In this document: piece by piece, positions 391 to 7,300 of the stretch
How the letters are laid out: each line of letters begins with the position of its first letter
Numbering within the stretch: the stretch's first letter is position 1
DNA from: Streptomyces mirabilis
Lineage (GTDB): Bacteria > Actinomycetota > Actinomycetes > Streptomycetales > Streptomycetaceae
NCBI RefSeq assembly: GCF_039503195.1
Contig: NZ_JBCJKP010000001.1
Coordinates: 5,208,001 to 5,272,000, forward strand
Length of the DNA stretch: 64,000 nucleotides
Direction: 5' to 3'
Made by a program: the position numbers and the translations under genes
Notes under the pieces: generated by a model
Databases searched by the model: none
What the model was told of the DNA's origin: nothing
What the model saw: only the letters and a program-made list of their open reading frames with translations

Positions 391-882
391 ATGGCCGAGC
401 AGGCGCAGTACGAGGAATTGGCTCGTCAGCTCAGTGCCGTCGGTGCCGTGAAGCGGGAGCTCGGGCGGATCCTGCCGCACGACTGCCCCGCGGGCTCCGC
501 CGCCGTACTGACCCTCCTCGGCCGGCACGGCGACATGCGGATGAGCAGGCTCGCCGAGCTGCTCGCCGTGGACATGTCCGTGACCAGCCGCCACGTCGCC
601 CACGTCGCCGACCGGGGCTGGATCGAACGCCTCCCCGACCCCGCCGACAAACGCTCCCGCATCCTGCGCCTCACCGACGCGGGACGCGAGCAGCTCACCG
701 AACTCTCCCGCCGCTCCTCTCGGCTGTTCGCCGACCGGCTGAGCGACTGGTCCGACCACGAGGTCGGCCTGCTCATCCACCTGATGGGCCGGCTGCGCGA
801 GAGCTTCGGCGACTGCCGTGCCGTACCCCGGCCGCCCTACGTGCCGGAAGCAAGCGAACTGACCACCCGTACACCCGCATAA
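391..882 (+). CDS. MarR-family transcriptional regulator
   Basis: 163-residue winged-helix regulator. The ATG at 391 is chosen because AGGAGG sits 5 bases upstream, although the frame is open further up. Residues about 30-100 give the MarR core: a recognition-helix region around MSVTSRHVAHVADRGWIER followed by the wing (DPADKRSRILRLTDAG). It ends 19 bp before the MFS pump, so the two are almost certainly co-transcribed. The expected role is ligand-relieved repression of the pump, acting at the paired palindromes just upstream. The inducer cannot be predicted. Family assignment is firm. Confidence 0.93.
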   Translation: MAEQAQYEELARQLSAVGAVKRELGRILPHDCPAGSAAVLTLLGRHGDMRMSRLAELLAVDMSVTSRHVAHVADRGWIERLPDPADKRSRILRLTDAGREQLTELSRRSSRLFADRLSDWSDHEVGLLIHLMGRLRESFGDCRAVPRPPYVPEASELTTRTPA

Positions 883-901
883 GAGCAAGAGAAGGAAGCC
901 C

Positions 902-3433
902 ATGGCAACGACCACACCAGCCGGTGTGCGGGCTCACGCCAAGCACGGAGGTGCACCCTCCGACGGCGCTCCGATGACACATCGTCAGATCATGGAGGCC
1001 CTCTCCGGGCTGCTGCTCGGTATGTTCGTCGCGATCCTGTCGTCGACGATCGTCACCAACGCCCTGCCCGAGATCATCGGCGACCTGGGCGGCGGTCAGT
1101 CCGCCTACACCTGGGTCGTCACGGCCTCGCTGCTGGCCATGACCGCGACCACGCCTCTGTGGGGCAAGCTCTCCGACCTGTACAGCAAGAAGGCGCTCGT
1201 ACAGATAGCCCTCGTCATATACGTGCTGGGATCGGCCGCCGCCGGTCTGTCCCAGAACCCCGGCATGCTCATCGCATGCCGCGTGGTCCAGGGCGTCGGC
1301 GTCGGCGGTCTGTCCGCCCTCGCCCAGATCGTCATGGCCGCGATGATCTCCCCGCGTGAGCGCGGCCGTTACTCCGGCTACCTCGGCGCGACCTTCGCTG
1401 TCGCAACCGTCGGCGGCCCGCTGCTCGGCGGTGTCATCACCGACACCTCGTGGCTCGGCTGGCGCTGGTGCTTCTACGTCGGCGTGCCGTTCGCGATCAT
1501 CGCGCTGATCGTGCTGCAGAAGACCCTGCACCTGCCCACCGTGAGGCGGGACGTGAAGGTCGACTGGGGCGGCGCGTTCTTCATCTCCGCCGCGGTCTCG
1601 CTGCTGCTGGTCTGGGTCACCTTCGCCGGTGACAAGTACGACTGGGTGTCGGGGCAGACGTACGCGATGGTCGGAGGCGCGATCGTCCTCGGCCTGCTGT
1701 TCGTGCTCGTCGAGTCCAAGGCGAGCGAACCCATCATCCCGCTGCGGCTGTTCCGCAACCGCACCATCACCCTTTCCTCCCTCGCCTCGCTCTTCGTCGG
1801 CGTCGCGATGTTCACCGGCACCGTCTTCTTCAGCCAGTACTTCCAGCTGGCCCGTGACAAGTCCCCGACGATGTCGGGCGTCATGACCATCCCGATGATC
1901 GGCGGCCTGTTCATCGCCTCCACGGTCTCCGGCCAGGTCATCACCAAGACCGGCCGGTGGAAGTACTGGCTGGTCAGCGGCACCGTCTTGATCACCGCGG
2001 GCCTGGGCCTGCTGGGCACCATCCGCTACGACACGACCTACTGGCACGTCGCGATCTTCATGGCGCTGCTCGGTCTCGGCGTCGGCATGACGATGCAGAA
2101 CCTGGTGCTGTCCACGCAGAACCAGGTGGCCCCGTCCGACCTCGGCTCGGCCAGCTCCACGGTGACGTTCTTCCGCTCCCTCGGCGGTGCGATCGGCGTC
2201 TCCGCGCTCGGCGCGATCATGTCCACCCGGATCACCGACTACGTCAAGGACGGCCTGACCGGCATCGACCCCAAGTACGCGGCCGCCGCGTCCGGCTCCG
2301 GCTCCGGCACCATCCCGAACATGGACGCGCTGCCCGCCCCGCTGCGCACCGTCCTGGAGAGCGCCTACGGTCACGGCATCGCGGACGTCTTCATGATCGG
2401 CTCCGCCCTGGCACTGCTCGCCTTCCTCATCGTCCTGTTCATCAAGGAGGTCCCGCTGCGGACCTCGGGCGCGCTGGCCCAGGCCGCGGAGGCGAAGGCG
2501 GAGGCCACCGAGCCGACGGCTACGGCCACCGCCGAGGCACCCGCCGCCGACGAGAGGATTCCGAGCTGGGCGGCCGTCGCCGAGACGAGCCTCGCGGCCG
2601 GACCCGAGGGCACGCAGCGGCTCGCCGCCGTCGCCACCGCGACACGGGAGAGCGCACCGCTGCCCGCCTCCGGCGGCGTAGCGGTCCGCGGTCACGTCCG
2701 CGGCGCCGAGAGCGCCCCCGTCCCGCAGGCCGCGGTCACGCTGATCTCGCTCGCGGGACGGCAGCTGGGCCGGTCGGTCGCGCAGGCCGACGGCTTCTAC
2801 ACGGTGGACGCTCCCGGCACGGGCTCGTACGTCCTGATCGCCTCCGCCGACGGTTTCCAGCCGCAGGCCTCGACGATCACCGTGAACGACGAGCCGGTGG
2901 CGTACGACATCCTGCTGAGCGGCACGAGCGGGCTGAGCGGACTCGTCCGGGCCGCCGGGACCGGCACCCCGGTCAAGGACGCCATGGTGATCGTGACCGA
3001 CGTCCGCGGTGACGTGCTGGCCACCGGGACCACCGGTGAGCAGGGCCAGTTCACCTTCGCCGAACTGGTTCCGGGTCCGGTGACCATCGCGGTGAACGCG
3101 GCCGGCCACCGCCCGCAGGCCCTCACCGTCGAGGTCGGCGGCGCCGGGGTCACCCGGGTCGAGGTCGAGCTCAGCGCGGGCGCCCAGCTCCAGGGCGTCG
3201 TACGGGCCCCCGGCGGCCCCCTGGGCGACGCCCGGGTCACGCTGGTCGACGCGGCCGGCAACGTGATCGGCACCGCCAGGACCGGCACGGACGGCGCGTA
3301 CGCCTTCACCGACCTGGACGGCGGCGAGTACACCGTCATCGCGACGGGTTACCCCCCGGTCGCGACGGCTCTCACGGTCACCGGCCGTGGCGTCGACGAC
3401 CACGACATCACCCTCGCCCACCCCGGCGAGTAG
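902..3433 (+). CDS. DHA2 (EmrB/QacA) MFS exporter with three C-terminal carboxypeptidase-regulatory-like domains
   Basis: 843-residue protein. Residues about 30-515 form a 14-helix drug:H+ antiporter with the family signatures (for example GKLSDLYSKK after helix 2 and ACRVVQGVGVGG). After an Ala/Glu-rich linker (about 520-585) come three tandem beta-sandwich repeats of the carboxypeptidase-regulatory type, at about 590-675, 676-758 and 759-843. Each has a G.V....G.P...A.V.L...G pattern followed by a DG.Y.F....G.Y.... pattern. Ordinary DHA2 pumps end near 500 residues. A 14-helix pump puts both ends in the cytoplasm, so these usually exported domains would be cytoplasmic. It sits between a MarR gene and a YceI gene carrying the same domain. 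Confidence 0.92.
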   Translation: MATTTPAGVRAHAKHGGAPSDGAPMTHRQIMEALSGLLLGMFVAILSSTIVTNALPEIIGDLGGGQSAYTWVVTASLLAMTATTPLWGKLSDLYSKKALVQIALVIYVLGSAAAGLSQNPGMLIACRVVQGVGVGGLSALAQIVMAAMISPRERGRYSGYLGATFAVATVGGPLLGGVITDTSWLGWRWCFYVGVPFAIIALIVLQKTLHLPTVRRDVKVDWGGAFFISAAVSLLLVWVTFAGDKYDWVSGQTYAMVGGAIVLGLLFVLVESKASEPIIPLRLFRNRTITLSSLASLFVGVAMFTGTVFFSQYFQLARDKSPTMSGVMTIPMIGGLFIASTVSGQVITKTGRWKYWLVSGTVLITAGLGLLGTIRYDTTYWHVAIFMALLGLGVGMTMQNLVLSTQNQVAPSDLGSASSTVTFFRSLGGAIGVSALGAIMSTRITDYVKDGLTGIDPKYAAAASGSGSGTIPNMDALPAPLRTVLESAYGHGIADVFMIGSALALLAFLIVLFIKEVPLRTSGALAQAAEAKAEATEPTATATAEAPAADERIPSWAAVAETSLAAGPEGTQRLAAVATATRESAPLPASGGVAVRGHVRGAESAPVPQAAVTLISLAGRQLGRSVAQADGFYTVDAPGTGSYVLIASADGFQPQASTITVNDEPVAYDILLSGTSGLSGLVRAAGTGTPVKDAMVIVTDVRGDVLATGTTGEQGQFTFAELVPGPVTIAVNAAGHRPQALTVEVGGAGVTRVEVELSAGAQLQGVVRAPGGPLGDARVTLVDAAGNVIGTARTGTDGAYAFTDLDGGEYTVIATGYPPVATALTVTGRGVDDHDITLAHPGE

Positions 3434-3441
3434 TTGATACC

Positions 3442-3495
3442 CCGGCCCGTGGGGACGCGCGCGCTCTGAGCGGAGGTGCGCCCCCCACGGGCCGG
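3442..3495 (+). terminator. Hairpin between MFS and YceI genes
   Basis: Arms 3442-3454 and 3483-3495 form a perfect 13-bp stem just after the pump stop codon. It may attenuate read-through into the YceI gene rather than separate the two completely. Confidence 0.6.
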
Positions 3496-3539
3496 TTTCA
3501 TGGCGACCGATTTTTAGTGTTTTGCAGGGAGAAAACGGG

Positions 3540-4361
3540 ATGGGACTGACCGCACGGATTCGCACGCGGGACGGATGGGCCGTGTCGCACGCGGTCGTCA
3601 CGGTGACCGACATGACCGGGACGCAGGTGCTGCGCGCCGAGGCCGACGCCGAAGGCGCCGTGCACGACCCGACCCCCCTCACGCCCGGCGCGTACACCGT
3701 GATCGTGACCGCGGTCGGGTACGCGCCCGCCGCCTCCAGCGCGATCGTGACGGCGAGCGGCCGGGCCGAGATCGGCAATGTGACCCTCGCCCGCCAGGGC
3801 GGCAACGAACTGCCGCCGCCCGGACCCTGGACCGTCGACCCGGCGCACTCCTCCGTCGGCGCCGTCGCGCAGCACCTGGGCATCTCCAGCGTGCACGGCC
3901 GTTTCACGGACTTCTCCGCGACGATCGAGATCGCCCCGGACGACGTGTCCAAGTCCCGTGTCGAGGCCGTGATCACCGCGGCCTCGATCGACACCGGCAA
4001 CGGCATGCGCGACGGCCACCTGAAGTCCCCCGACTTCCTCGACGTCGAGACGTACCCGCGGATCACCTACCGCTCGACCGGCCTGACCCCGGCCGGCTCC
4101 GACCGCTGGACCGTCCACGGCGAACTCACCATGCGCGGCATCGCCCGCCCGGTCGACCTGGACCTCGCCTACCTGGGCACGGGCGGGGACCCCTGGGGCG
4201 GCACGCGGGCCGCCTTCCGGGCGACGACCGAACTCCACCGCGAGGACTTCGCCATGAACTACAACCAGGTCATCCAGGCAGGCATCTCGGCGATCGGCAG
4301 CACGCTGAAGGTGGAGTTGGACGTCCAGGCGGTGCAAGGCGTGCCACTCCCGCAGGCGTGA
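3540..4361 (+). CDS. YceI-family protein with N-terminal carboxypeptidase-regulatory-like domain
   Basis: 273 residues. Residues 1-92 are one carboxypeptidase-regulatory-like repeat, close in pattern to those on the pump upstream. Residues about 97-270 are a YceI domain, a lipocalin-like barrel that binds polyisoprenoids in known members, with the family features WTVDPAHSSV near its start and the FTDFSATIEI and DFLDVETYPRITYRS strands. The ATG at 3540 is preferred over a TTG at 3522 because GGGAG lies at suitable spacing. No signal peptide is visible, unlike the periplasmic YceI of Gram-negatives, so the product is probably cytoplasmic. Shared domains and position suggest it works with the MarR-controlled pump. 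Confidence 0.9.
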   Translation: MGLTARIRTRDGWAVSHAVVTVTDMTGTQVLRAEADAEGAVHDPTPLTPGAYTVIVTAVGYAPAASSAIVTASGRAEIGNVTLARQGGNELPPPGPWTVDPAHSSVGAVAQHLGISSVHGRFTDFSATIEIAPDDVSKSRVEAVITAASIDTGNGMRDGHLKSPDFLDVETYPRITYRSTGLTPAGSDRWTVHGELTMRGIARPVDLDLAYLGTGGDPWGGTRAAFRATTELHREDFAMNYNQVIQAGISAIGSTLKVELDVQAVQGVPLPQA

Positions 4362-4389
4362 GGTGAGCGCACCTTCCCGGCGGGCAGCC

Positions 4390-4395
4390 TAGGCT
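4390..4395 (+). promoter_or_regulatory. TAGGCT -10 box, leaderless start
   Basis: TAGGCT ends 7 bases before the ATG at 4403, and no Shine-Dalgarno sequence is present. Transcription would begin at or next to the start codon, a common Streptomyces arrangement. Confidence 0.6.
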
Positions 4396-4402
4396 GACTC
4401 AC

Positions 4403-4909
4403 ATGGCACCGAACATCGCTACGAACACCGCCGTGTCCCTGGACGAACTGCTCGACTTCGTACGCCCCCGCCACCGCGCCATCCTGCTGACCCGGAGGGC
4501 GGACGGCAGCCCCCAGGGCTCCCCCCTGACCTGCGGGGTCGACGACGCCGGGCGGATCGTCGTCTCGACCTACCCCGAACGCGCGAAGACCCGTAACGCC
4601 AAGCGGGACGAGCGGGTCAGCCTGATCGTGCTGAGCGACGAGTGGAACGGACCCTGGGTCCAGATCGACGGCACGGCCGAGGTCGTCGACTCCCCCGAAT
4701 CCGTCGAGCCGCTCGTCGAGTACTACCGGAACATCGCGGGCGAACACCCGGACTGGGACGAGTACCGGGAGGCCATGCTCAAGCAGGGCAAGTCGATCAT
4801 CCGGGTCACGCCGGTGAAGTGGGGACCGGTCGCGACGGGCGGCTTCCCGGCCCGGCTGTCCCCCAGGAGTAGCCCGGGAACGGCCGAGAAGGAGCGGGGC
4901 AGGCCCTAA
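4403..4909 (+). CDS. PPOX-class F420-dependent oxidoreductase
   Basis: 168 residues forming a split beta-barrel flavin-fold enzyme. The F420-dependent pyridoxamine-oxidase-like pattern is clear: RHRAILLTRRADGSPQGSPL at the N-terminal strand pair, VVSTYPERAKTRNAKRDERV for cofactor contacts, then WVQIDGTAEVVD. Such enzymes reduce substrates with F420H2; the natural substrate here is unknown. The gene appears leaderless. It is convergent with the TetR gene, and the two stop codons share the bases CTAA (4906-4909), so the 3' ends overlap. Confidence 0.88.
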   Translation: MAPNIATNTAVSLDELLDFVRPRHRAILLTRRADGSPQGSPLTCGVDDAGRIVVSTYPERAKTRNAKRDERVSLIVLSDEWNGPWVQIDGTAEVVDSPESVEPLVEYYRNIAGEHPDWDEYREAMLKQGKSIIRVTPVKWGPVATGGFPARLSPRSSPGTAEKERGRP

Positions 4910-5679
4910 CCCCGGGCGACCATCGTCTCGATCCCCGCGATCAGCGTTTCCAGCGCGAACGTGAAGTCCCGCTCCCGCATCTCCTCGACCGTGTCACCGC
5001 CGCGGGCCTCCATGAGGTCCGCGGCGTTCTCGAAGTTGGCGGAGAACTGCGGCTGTTCGCCGATCGTGCTCATGGCCTGACGGAAGTACTCGTCCTGGGT
5101 CATCCCCGCCGAGGCGCAGCGCTGCACGAAGTGGCCCTCGATGGTGCCGAACCCGTACACGAACTGGAAGACCGCCGAGAGCGCGCCCATCTGGCCGTGC
5201 CGGGGCAGGCCGGTGTTGCGGATCACCTGCTGGACGCAGAGCGAGAAGGCCATGGAGTGCGGGCCGATGTTCAGGAAGGTCCCGATCAGCGGGGACACCC
5301 AGGGGTGGCGGACCAGCAGCGCGCGATAGCCGGTGGCGAGGGAGCGGAGCTGGTCGCGCCAGTCCTCGCCCGACTCCGCGTCGGGCAGCTCCAGTTCGCC
5401 GAAGACCGCGTCGAGGGCGAGCTCCAGCAGGTCGTCCTTGGTGTCGACGTACCAGTACACGGACATCGCGGTGACGTTCAGCTCGGCGGCCAGCCGGCGC
5501 ATGGAGAACTTCGCCATGCCCTCGGCATCCAGCAGCCGTACGGTGACCTCGGTGATCCGGTCCCGGTCGAGCCCCGACGGCTGCCCGCCCCCGCGCGCCG
5601 CAGCGCCCCGGGGAGCCTTGCCCTCCAGCCAGACACTGGTCCGCCCCGGACGCTCGGCACGGTCGGCTGCCCTCACCAT
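4906..5679 (-). CDS. TetR-family regulator (TetR_C_1 type)
   Basis: 257 residues from the ATG at 5679. The open frame extends upstream but has no better start. The N-terminal tail (about 35 residues) is followed by a helix-turn-helix with FSMRRLAAELNVTAMSVYWY, typical of TetR. The remainder is a helical ligand domain resembling the tetracycline-repressor C-terminal class. It lies 79 bp downstream of, and in the same orientation as, the DHA2 pump gene that it presumably represses. The likely operator is the inverted GYTGTAC motif at the pump start. Confidence 0.9.
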   Translation of the reverse strand: MVRAADRAERPGRTSVWLEGKAPRGAAARGGGQPSGLDRDRITEVTVRLLDAEGMAKFSMRRLAAELNVTAMSVYWYVDTKDDLLELALDAVFGELELPDAESGEDWRDQLRSLATGYRALLVRHPWVSPLIGTFLNIGPHSMAFSLCVQQVIRNTGLPRHGQMGALSAVFQFVYGFGTIEGHFVQRCASAGMTQDEYFRQAMSTIGEQPQFSANFENAADLMEARGGDTVEEMRERDFTFALETLIAGIETMVARG

Positions 5680-5695
5680 GGCGCACCTTCCTCGG

Positions 5696-5740
5696 GACTC
5701 GAAACTCGAGACTCGAAACTCACAACTGATGACTCGGAAC
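5696..5740. repeat. Direct repeats between pump and TetR genes
   Basis: GACTCGAAACTC occurs at 5696-5707 and 5710-5721 (period 14), with a weaker third copy GACTCGGAAC at 5731-5740. They fill the leader of the TetR gene and could be regulatory. Confidence 0.55.
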
Positions 5741-5758
5741 CCTGATGCTAAGCGGGCG

Positions 5759-7300
5759 CTACGCCGACACCGCCATCGCGGAGTCTGCCCTCTCCGCACG
5801 TCGTAGCAACGCCGCGGCCAGCAGTCCACCGAGAAGGACGGCCACCGCGCCCACCAGTTGGCTGGTCTCCAACCCCGACGAGAACGCGTCCGTGATCCGC
5901 CCGCGCTCCTCCTCCGAACCCGCCGAGGCCAGCGCGGCCGGGAGCGAGGCCGCCGCCACCGGAATCAGCGCCGCGAACCGGGAGTTGAGGATCGCCCCGA
6001 GGACCGCCACGCCGAGGCCGTTGCCGAACTCGGCGAGCGTGCCGTTGATGCCCGCGCCCACGCCCGCCTTCTCCGGCGGAATCGCGCTCATGACGGCGTG
6101 TGCCATGGCCGGGTTGGCCACGGCGGCGCCCGCGCCGATCAGCAACAGCCCGAGCAGTGTGTCGCCGTACCCGTGCGCGGCGAGCGTGGCGATCGACACC
6201 AACCCGGCCGACATCAGCGTCATGCCGAGCGCGATCGACACCGGAGTGCCGAGTCTCGCCGTCCACTTCGCCGAGAGGCCGGAGAAGTTCAGCGCCACGA
6301 CCGCGAGCGCGAGCGGCGCCGTACGCAGTCCGGCTTCCAGGGGGCCGTATCCCAGGACGAATTGGAGGTGCTGGGTGAGGAGGAAGAGGGCACCACCCAT
6401 GCCGAAGGTGATGAGGACGGCTCCCGCCACGGCTCCCGTGAAGCGCCGGTCGCGGAAGAAGTGCAGGTCGAGCATGGGGTACGGGATGCGGCTCTCCCAG
6501 TACGCGAAGGCGGCCAGCACCAGCACGGCGACCGCGTCCGTGGCCAGGACCCGGCCCGACGTCCAGCCGTGTTCGGGGCCGGAGATGATCGCGTACACGA
6601 GTGCGGTCATACCGATCGTGGAAAGCAGCGCTCCCAGGAGGTCGGGACGGTCCCCGCGCGGACTCTTCGACTCCGGTACGAGGGCCACCACCGCGGCGAG
6701 GCCCAGGGCCACCACCGGCAGGTTGACCAGGAAGATCGCGCCCCACCAGAAGTGGTTCAGTATGAAGCCGCCGAGGAGCGGCCCGGCCGCGAAGCCGAGG
6801 GCGTTGACGGCGCTCCAGATGCCGATGGCCTTCGGGTGCTCCGCGGGGGTGAAGACCTGCATGGCGACGGCGAGCGTGGTGGTCAGCAGGAGCGCGCCGC
6901 CGACGCCCATCCCGGCCCGTGCGGCGATCAACTGGCCCGTGGAGTCGGCGAGTCCGGCCACCACCGAGCCGATCCCGAAGAGGACCAGACCCGCGATCAG
7001 CATCTTCTTGCGGCCGTAGCGGTCGGCCGCGCTGCCCGCCGTGAGCAGCAGCCCGGACTGCACCAGCGAGTACGCGTTGATCATCCACTGGATGTCGGAG
7101 GTGGCCGCGCCCAGCTCCCGGGTGAGGGAGGGGATCGCGACGTTCAGGACGGTGTTGTCGAGCAGCACGGTCAGTTGGGCGAGGCAGATGACGCCGAGGA
7201 TCAGCCAGCGTTGGGGGTGGCCTTGCGGCTGGTCCTCGAGGGTCCTGGGGGAGTCGTCGACATGCTGTACACCGTAGAACAGCTCCCATACAGCGTACAA
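5759..7300 (-). CDS. DHA2-family MFS multidrug exporter
   Basis: 513 residues from a TTG at 7300, which has GGAG 7 bases upstream. A start further in cannot be excluded, because TTGTAC and TACGGT, 18 bases apart, could be a promoter inside this 5' end. The 14-helix DHA2 pattern is complete: LDNTVLNVAIPSL in helix 1, GSAADRYGRKKMLIAGL between helices 2 and 3, and the antiporter motif around GPLLGGFILNHFWWGAIFLV. It is an efflux pump driven by proton exchange. The co-oriented TetR gene follows. Unlike the pump at 902, it has no extra C-terminal domain. Confidence 0.92.
   Translation of the reverse strand: MYAVWELFYGVQHVDDSPRTLEDQPQGHPQRWLILGVICLAQLTVLLDNTVLNVAIPSLTRELGAATSDIQWMINAYSLVQSGLLLTAGSAADRYGRKKMLIAGLVLFGIGSVVAGLADSTGQLIAARAGMGVGGALLLTTTLAVAMQVFTPAEHPKAIGIWSAVNALGFAAGPLLGGFILNHFWWGAIFLVNLPVVALGLAAVVALVPESKSPRGDRPDLLGALLSTIGMTALVYAIISGPEHGWTSGRVLATDAVAVLVLAAFAYWESRIPYPMLDLHFFRDRRFTGAVAGAVLITFGMGGALFLLTQHLQFVLGYGPLEAGLRTAPLALAVVALNFSGLSAKWTARLGTPVSIALGMTLMSAGLVSIATLAAHGYGDTLLGLLLIGAGAAVANPAMAHAVMSAIPPEKAGVGAGINGTLAEFGNGLGVAVLGAILNSRFAALIPVAAASLPAALASAGSEEERGRITDAFSSGLETSQLVGAVAVLLGGLLAAALLRRAERADSAMAVSA

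Follow-up and report, generated by a model that had tools for sequence, protein, structure and literature searches.

Why would a drug-type exporter and the soluble protein encoded next to it carry the same kind of domain? The question is raised by a locus at positions 391 to 4,361 of the window, i.e. the whole stretch of 64,000 nucleotides of Streptomyces mirabilis DNA that was analysed (assembly GCF_039503195.1, contig NZ_JBCJKP010000001.1, positions 5,208,001 to 5,272,000). Its three genes lie on the plus strand and encode a MarR-family repressor (391-882), a pump of the major facilitator superfamily (MFS; 902-3433) that ends in a tail of three carboxypeptidase-regulatory-like domains (CPDs, of transthyretin fold), and a protein in which one such CPD is fused to a YceI barrel (CPD-YceI; 3540-4361). 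This arrangement, described in an initial annotation made from the sequence alone, was confirmed and represents a conserved actinobacterial locus. To judge from the genomes compared, the tail and CPD-YceI are inherited together, which suggests that the YceI protein is a carrier that docks on the pump. We give a probability of about one half to the reading that the locus encodes an exporter under SAV4189-type control, whose CPD tail docks a cytosolic CPD-YceI carrier and receives its cargo for export.

Co-occurrence of the tail and the CPD-YceI gene

A comparison of actinobacterial genomes bore out the expected co-occurrence of the two architectures and revealed an evolutionary coupling of tail and CPD-YceI, as docking would predict. 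Among 296 genomes of the class there are 24 places besides the window that encode a CPD-YceI at an identity of at least 50%. A whole tailed pump lies upstream in 23 of them, and the 24th, at a contig end, shows the tail. In the named genomes there are at least 581 CPD-YceI loci, of which the 80 best were read; they come from Streptomyces, Streptacidiphilus, Actinacidiphila, Microbispora, Sphaerisporangium, Planotetraspora, Streptosporangium, Actinomadura and one further actinomycete. A pump with three CPDs was found in 75 of these 80 loci; L227 has another tailed MFS pump, in L256 the tail is separated from the pump body, L270 begins within the tail, and no pump was read in L228 and L279, in the former for want of upstream sequence.

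A survey of 246 Streptomyces species (cut-offs of E<=1e-200 for the pump body, E<=1e-90 for CPD-YceI and E<=1e-80 for the tail) yielded the pump body in 236 species and CPD-YceI in 178, four of which (G349, G391, G483 and G486) gave no pump-body match. The tail was matched in 170 of the 178 CPD-YceI species and was seen beside the YceI gene in 141; in one species it is off frame, and in seven it was unmatched or unsearched. For most of the 178 species the tail frames are known only as search matches; the 13 that were read directly (window included) are all tailed. Of the 160 species searched, 157 gave a tail match, the misses being G305, with a pump frame of 944 amino acids (aa), G431 and G437. 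The four species outside the tail search have pump frames of 844-1022 aa. The tail lies at most 1.5 kb from the YceI gene in 128 of the 132 searched species for which the place of that gene was listed; the exceptions are G463, where the tail match is on another contig, and the three species without a match. Among the 28 searched species with no such place listed, 26 have a tail frame of at least 811 aa.

The species that lack CPD-YceI provide the complementary view. They number 68 of the 246, and 62 of them have the pump; all 62 were read (64 loci). An intact tail is missing from 55 and present in five, and the remaining two (G153, G400) lie at contig ends. The five intact tails are accompanied by YceI in broken frames in G413, G386 and G359, and by no trace of YceI in G182 and G510. 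A debris search of 21 loci uncovered YceI remnants in four loci of YceI-less species (L155, L169, L172 and L194) and, outside the genus, in L098. Some of the frame breaks may be assembly errors.

The coupling was also apparent on a tree of 107 pump bodies, made by a quick method and with 33 branches left open, on which the tail changes 16 times and YceI 15 times. Tail and YceI are both present in 24 rows and both absent from 72; seven rows have the tail only, one has YceI only, and three, cut by contig ends, were not counted. Supported branches allowed ten independent pairs that differ in the tail, in which YceI differed, on average, the same way in 7.5 and the opposite way in 0.0, with one opposite case in a few of the 200 pairings (median p 0.016, range 0.004-0.125). 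When the pairs were chosen by YceI instead, the tail differed the same way in 7.9 of 13 pairs and the opposite way in 0.0 (median p 0.008). Two neighbouring genes, encoding a PPOX-class oxidoreductase and a TetR regulator, were taken as control traits in a run that left out five more rows near contig ends (L072, L146, L147, L157 and L200). These neighbours do not follow the tail: the scores, out of ten pairs, were 7.6 for YceI, 1.4 for PPOX and 2.9 for TetR.

The sequences of the paired parts diverge in concert as well. Over 100 loci the divergence of the tail correlates with that of the YceI barrel at 0.90 and with that of the YceI CPD at 0.83, compared to 0.585 for the pump body to which the tail belongs. 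The partial correlations with the tail are 0.85 (barrel) and 0.78 (YceI CPD) given the body, and 0.29 for the body given the barrel. Moreover, the sequences show that the pairing of CPD-YceI with the tail is retained when the pump body is exchanged. The clearest example is L227 from S. acidicola, whose identity to the window is 28% in the pump body, 65% in the tail, 79% in the YceI CPD and 76% in the barrel. This pump is akin to that of L094 (83% in the body, 79% in the tail), a locus with no YceI adjoining. The pump bodies of L235, L238 and L271 are 43-47% identical to that of the window.

The pump, the YceI protein and the regulator

The body of the exporter (902-2521) is probably of the DHA2 type, for which 14 helices are expected. 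It matches PF07690 (MFS_1) with 163.1 bits and TIGR00711 (EmrB/QacA-like) with 221.3 bits, slightly below the cut-off of 230.2, and its relatives in the PDB include the putative triacylglyceride transporter 8pnl and EfpA. The tail domains follow at 2687-2923 (t1, residues about 596-674), 2924-3175 (t2, about 675-758) and 3176-3415 (t3, about 759-838). A hydropathy script recognised 13 segments and missed helix 2, which shifted the raw tally of Lys and Arg (even 13, odd 16). Once helix 2 is inserted manually ahead of the loop that we take to be MFS motif A, the loops hold 19 Lys and Arg inside and 10 outside, and the tail ends up inside. The tail is thus predicted to be cytoplasmic, in agreement with the initial annotation. 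The four CPD types of the locus (y, t1, t2 and t3) are 66-74% conserved within a type and only 28-38% alike between types; the CPD of the YceI protein is therefore no recent copy of a tail domain.

The claim that the YceI protein has no signal peptide was likewise supported: its CPD (3546-3797) begins at residue 3, with no N-terminal signal before it, and the protein is predicted to be cytosolic. Residue Trp13 of this domain (codon 3576-3578) occurs without exception in the 100 pump-linked copies compared and in none of the 11 unlinked CPD-YceI paralogues, and it is not the common residue of any tail domain. The same type of domain accompanies the metallocarboxypeptidases (1qmu, 5aq0); here it occurs without the peptidase and is apparently reused as tail and as tag. 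A PDB sequence search with the YceI CPD alone gave nothing convincing. The barrel (3822-4337) is that of a bacterial lipocalin. A Foldseek search with the protein model places it closest to the polyisoprenoid-binding TT1927b (1wub, E 1.6e-18), and it resembles the antibiotic-sequestering lipocalins (7bwl, BcnA); a cohesin-dockerin complex (2b59_B, E 6.8e-3) was also listed, too weakly to be used. Within the set compared (BcnA/BcnB, 7bwl, 5ixh, 1y0g, 1wub), BcnA is a secreted single-domain protein, whereas the YceI protein of the window has no signal peptide, is fused to a CPD and is encoded beside an exporter.

Control of the locus connects it to a published system. In S. avermitilis the MarR repressor SAV4189 is co-transcribed with the MFS gene sav_4190, the homologues in S. 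coelicolor being SCO4032 and SCO4031, respectively, and it binds operators with the 13-bp consensus TTGCCYKHRSCAA (PMC6036246). According to the same paper, hygromycin B and thiostrepton release SAV4189 from its operator, the pump gene is induced 71- to 75-fold, and deletion of the pump (region +104 to +2446) results in 56-67% more avermectin. In the window three such sites precede marR on the plus strand: TTGCCTTTGCCAT at 291-303 (site a, one mismatch), TTGCCTGCAGCAA at 332-344 (site b1, an exact match) and TTGCCCCAAGCAA at 361-373 (site b2, one mismatch). They are the only three in the 64 kb with at most one mismatch. Shuffled versions of the window contain 1.37 matches on average, and 17 of 100 reach three anywhere in the window; the weight of the sites lies in their clustering within 83 bp and in their conservation in 32 upstream regions. 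A site near -100 is present in 17 of these 32 regions.

The window and SAV4189-SAV4190 thus have in common a MarR gene, a short gap, a large MFS gene, three upstream sites of the same consensus and a wide conservation in Streptomyces; the gap measures 19 nt here (882 to 902) and 22 nt there (PMC6036246). Since operator, gene order and spacing agree, we take the operon to be the orthologue of SAV4189-SAV4190 (SCO4032-SCO4031), and the repressor to be that of SAV4189, an assignment that draws on these features. An identification with the MarR-regulated MFS pump SCO4121-SCO4122 of S. coelicolor was set aside, because the neighbours do not seem to fit that region and PMC6036246 names SCO4031/SCO4032. 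The proposal of a hitherto undescribed export system hence does not hold in full: the MarR and the pump have been published, and the novelty lies in the joint inheritance of the tail and CPD-YceI. The main text of PMC6036246 does not mention YceI, carboxypeptidase, a CPD tail or sav_4191, and it gives the exporter no known substrate. No paper describing the combination of a tailed pump and CPD-YceI was found among the listings of the open-licence PMC literature.

A proposed docked carrier and the competing explanations

In the mechanism that we propose, a SAV4189-type MarR repressor would control a 14-helix drug-type exporter, the cytosolic tail of which would act as docking arm for the CPD-bearing YceI carrier. 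The latter would capture in the cytosol a toxin or metabolite that is hydrophobic or amphipathic; held at the inner mouth of the pump, it would present this cargo for export. We infer the contact between CPDs, with Trp13 of the YceI protein as the foremost candidate for a contact residue, as well as the cargo and its hand-over. Secondary exporters of this class are thought to take their cargo from the membrane or the cytosol unaided. If the mechanism is correct, a lipocalin docked on a pump tail would constitute a new way of feeding an exporter and an inward mirror of the periplasmic or outer-face carriers. It would also explain why a tail is matched in most of the sampled Streptomyces species, in an operon that affects avermectin yield. 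A related division of labour is known from the mycobacteria, where the DHA2-type MFS exporter Rv1410 (P55) and the lipid-binding protein LprG from the adjacent gene serve triacylglyceride export, and the window pump matches 8pnl. LprG has another fold and acts outside, as an exported lipoprotein, whereas the carrier of the window is predicted to be inside and has a domain in common with the pump tail. The earlier idea that the shared domain docks a lipid carrier survives in part: the evolutionary coupling is as docking predicts, but a lipid cargo is not supported. YceI lipocalins have been described to bind hydrophobic antibiotics, capturing them unaided (PMC5350466), which fits a drug-induced operon.

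Several observations weigh against docking, or against docking as the whole role of the tail. A pump without its tail beside an intact YceI gene, which the initial annotation would count as a refutation, was found twice among the loci with frames read. In L212 (genome G514) a frameshift separates the tail from the pump, the one clear case of this kind among the 178 YceI-bearing species. In L256 (Streptomyces macrolidinus RY43-2, 1379-4816) the pump frame ends in the linker and the tail is split off; the tail frame runs free of stops into CPD-YceI, which places four CPDs and the barrel in one frame, and the split may be real or an assembly error. Tail frames shorter than 700 aa occur in seven of the 128 species with an adjoining tail, two of them on long contigs: in G300 (C1:3930999-3932854) and G349 (C3:10501000-10502961) the tail adjoins CPD-YceI but stands in an open frame of only about 600 aa, so that the pump body there is possibly a broken or a different one. 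Conversely, three pump relatives (L096, L208 and L119) retain a tail but show no trace of YceI, and CPD-tailed pumps of other subfamilies, as well as MMPL and SLAC1 proteins with CPDs, have no YceI nearby (0 of 40 loci, which were selected from the matches outside the known pump-YceI loci and some of which are cut by contig ends). YceI docking is consequently not the sole role of CPD tails. As to the divergence data, distance correlations are raised by the shared descent of adjoining genes, and the tail tracks the pump body to which it belongs as well; once the four exchanged pumps are left out, the partial values become 0.71 for the barrel, 0.66 for the YceI CPD and 0.56 for the own body, so that much of the gap between barrel and body rests on these four. 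Finally, the gain in avermectin after deletion of the pump, as reported in PMC6036246, is silent on any carrier.

A tentative generalisation of the docking proposal is that actinobacteria might use the CPDs as a code for docking at the inner side of the membrane, the tails of unrelated exporters (DHA2 pumps of several subfamilies, MMPL, SLAC1-type, DUF3533) recognising soluble CPD-tagged lipocalin-like carriers. In that speculative case one carrier may serve one or several exporters by tail recognition; of such pairs, the locus of the window would perhaps be the one with the best documentation, and the S. acidicola locus with its exchanged pump body might be the code at work.

Among the explanations that dispense with docking, a parallel protection deserves most attention, although we consider it unlikely. 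The pump would export and the cytosolic YceI protein would sequester the same compound independently, the CPDs only stabilising or dimerising the proteins. The unaided capture of antibiotics by YceI lipocalins, the limited likeness of the four CPD types and the many tailed pumps with no YceI nearby are all in line with this explanation. It leaves unexplained, however, why it is the tail and not the pump that goes with YceI, as evident from the 55 of 62 YceI-less pump species that have no intact tail, and why one lineage carries tail and YceI on another pump.

A purely mechanical co-loss, in which single deletions remove the adjoining tail codons and yceI in the absence of a functional link, appears improbable. 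Adjacency does ease joint loss, and several losses resemble single deletions that begin where the pump body ends and reach into YceI (L155, L169 and L172; the debris in L098 belongs to the same pattern). Moreover, the junction contains an inverted repeat (3442-3495, plus strand) with a perfect 13-bp stem (3442-3454 with 3483-3495) and a 28-nt loop, and long hairpins are common at this place: over 96 junctions, that of the window included, the best stem has a median length of 11 bp versus 7 bp in simple shuffles (one outlier with a 114-bp stem is probably an artefact). Yet damage to the tail only is easily inflicted by any stop or frameshift and is clear in just G514/L212 among the 178 species, most of which were assessed through search matches to the tail. 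In addition, tail and YceI are broken separately in L194 (where assembly errors are possible), and L227 shows the pairing on another pump. The repeat itself is a possible attenuator or stabilising hairpin.

Protection of lipids or quinones seems quite improbable. Here YceI would shield or move prenyl or peroxidised lipids in the manner of BcnA-LcoA, and the exporter would remove damaged lipid products. The similarity of the barrel to TT1927b and that of the pump to 8pnl and EfpA are in its favour, as is the detoxification of lipid peroxyl radicals by BcnA, LcoA and PsrA (PMC9113575). In the BcnA-LcoA pair, however, a secreted YceI protein is linked to a cytochrome b561 gene, whereas the YceI of the window has no signal, and inspection of the neighbouring genes (MarR, MFS, PPOX, TetR and MFS adjoin) revealed no recognisable cytochrome b561. 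Furthermore, induction is known for hygromycin B and thiostrepton (PMC6036246). Very improbable is a last explanation, in which many exporters share the tail as a module for regulation or for partitioning in the membrane, and CPD-YceI is one of several soluble proteins recruited by it and no cargo carrier. The genome also encodes MFS, MMPL, SLAC1 and DUF3533 proteins with C-terminal CPDs, which would suit it, but the tight pairing of the window tail type with the window YceI type would not.

Neighbouring genes and CPDs elsewhere

Downstream of the operon a PPOX-class F420-dependent oxidoreductase (TIGR03618; 4403-4909, plus strand) is a frequent yet separable neighbour, present in 41 of the 80 named loci. 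The minus strand encodes the TetR regulator together with a SmvA/LfrA-like MFS pump (4906-7300); these often stay beside the operon, TetR being present in 51 of the 80. Two genes for SigF-type sigma factors precede the operon (L293:14482-16585), with tadA and upp further upstream. This surrounding presumably corresponds to the SCO4034-SCO4041 region, which we take to contain upp, tadA and two SigF-type sigma genes, in agreement with the neighbours of the operon. A sigma-70 promoter scan found none, and the one terminator-like site, at 3493-3509, does not exceed chance expectation (0.8 on average in shuffles).

A second CPD-YceI family occurs in Streptomyces (11 loci, L077-L087); it is about 39-46% identical and its CPD lacks Trp13. 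It was considered as a second carrier-pump pair and rejected, because in none of the 11 loci a CPD-tailed pump adjoins; in L083 an untailed MFS gene lies about 1.5 kb away. Neighbours common to about seven of the 11 are comEC-, holA- and lepA-like genes, identified on L077 and L081 only.

Five further membrane proteins of the same genome carry C-terminal CPDs. One is a second MFS pump with three CPDs and no YceI nearby (L089:4484-6898); the others are an MMPL protein, a SLAC1-type channel, a third MFS protein and a DUF3533 protein (L090:3559-5979, L126:3721-5124, L127:2757-4667 and L128:4170-5630). The numbers of positive charges after versus before the last helix are 2/0 for MMPL, 5/1 for SLAC1, 4/1 for the third MFS protein, 4/1 for DUF3533 and 2/1 for the pump of the locus, whereas the order is reversed in the second pump (2 after, 3 before). 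Elsewhere, the pump relative at L119:4324-7797 has three CPDs and a DUF1622 segment at its C-terminal end with no YceI adjoining, and an MMPL exporter at L118:2066-5452, from another family of the class, also ends in three CPDs.

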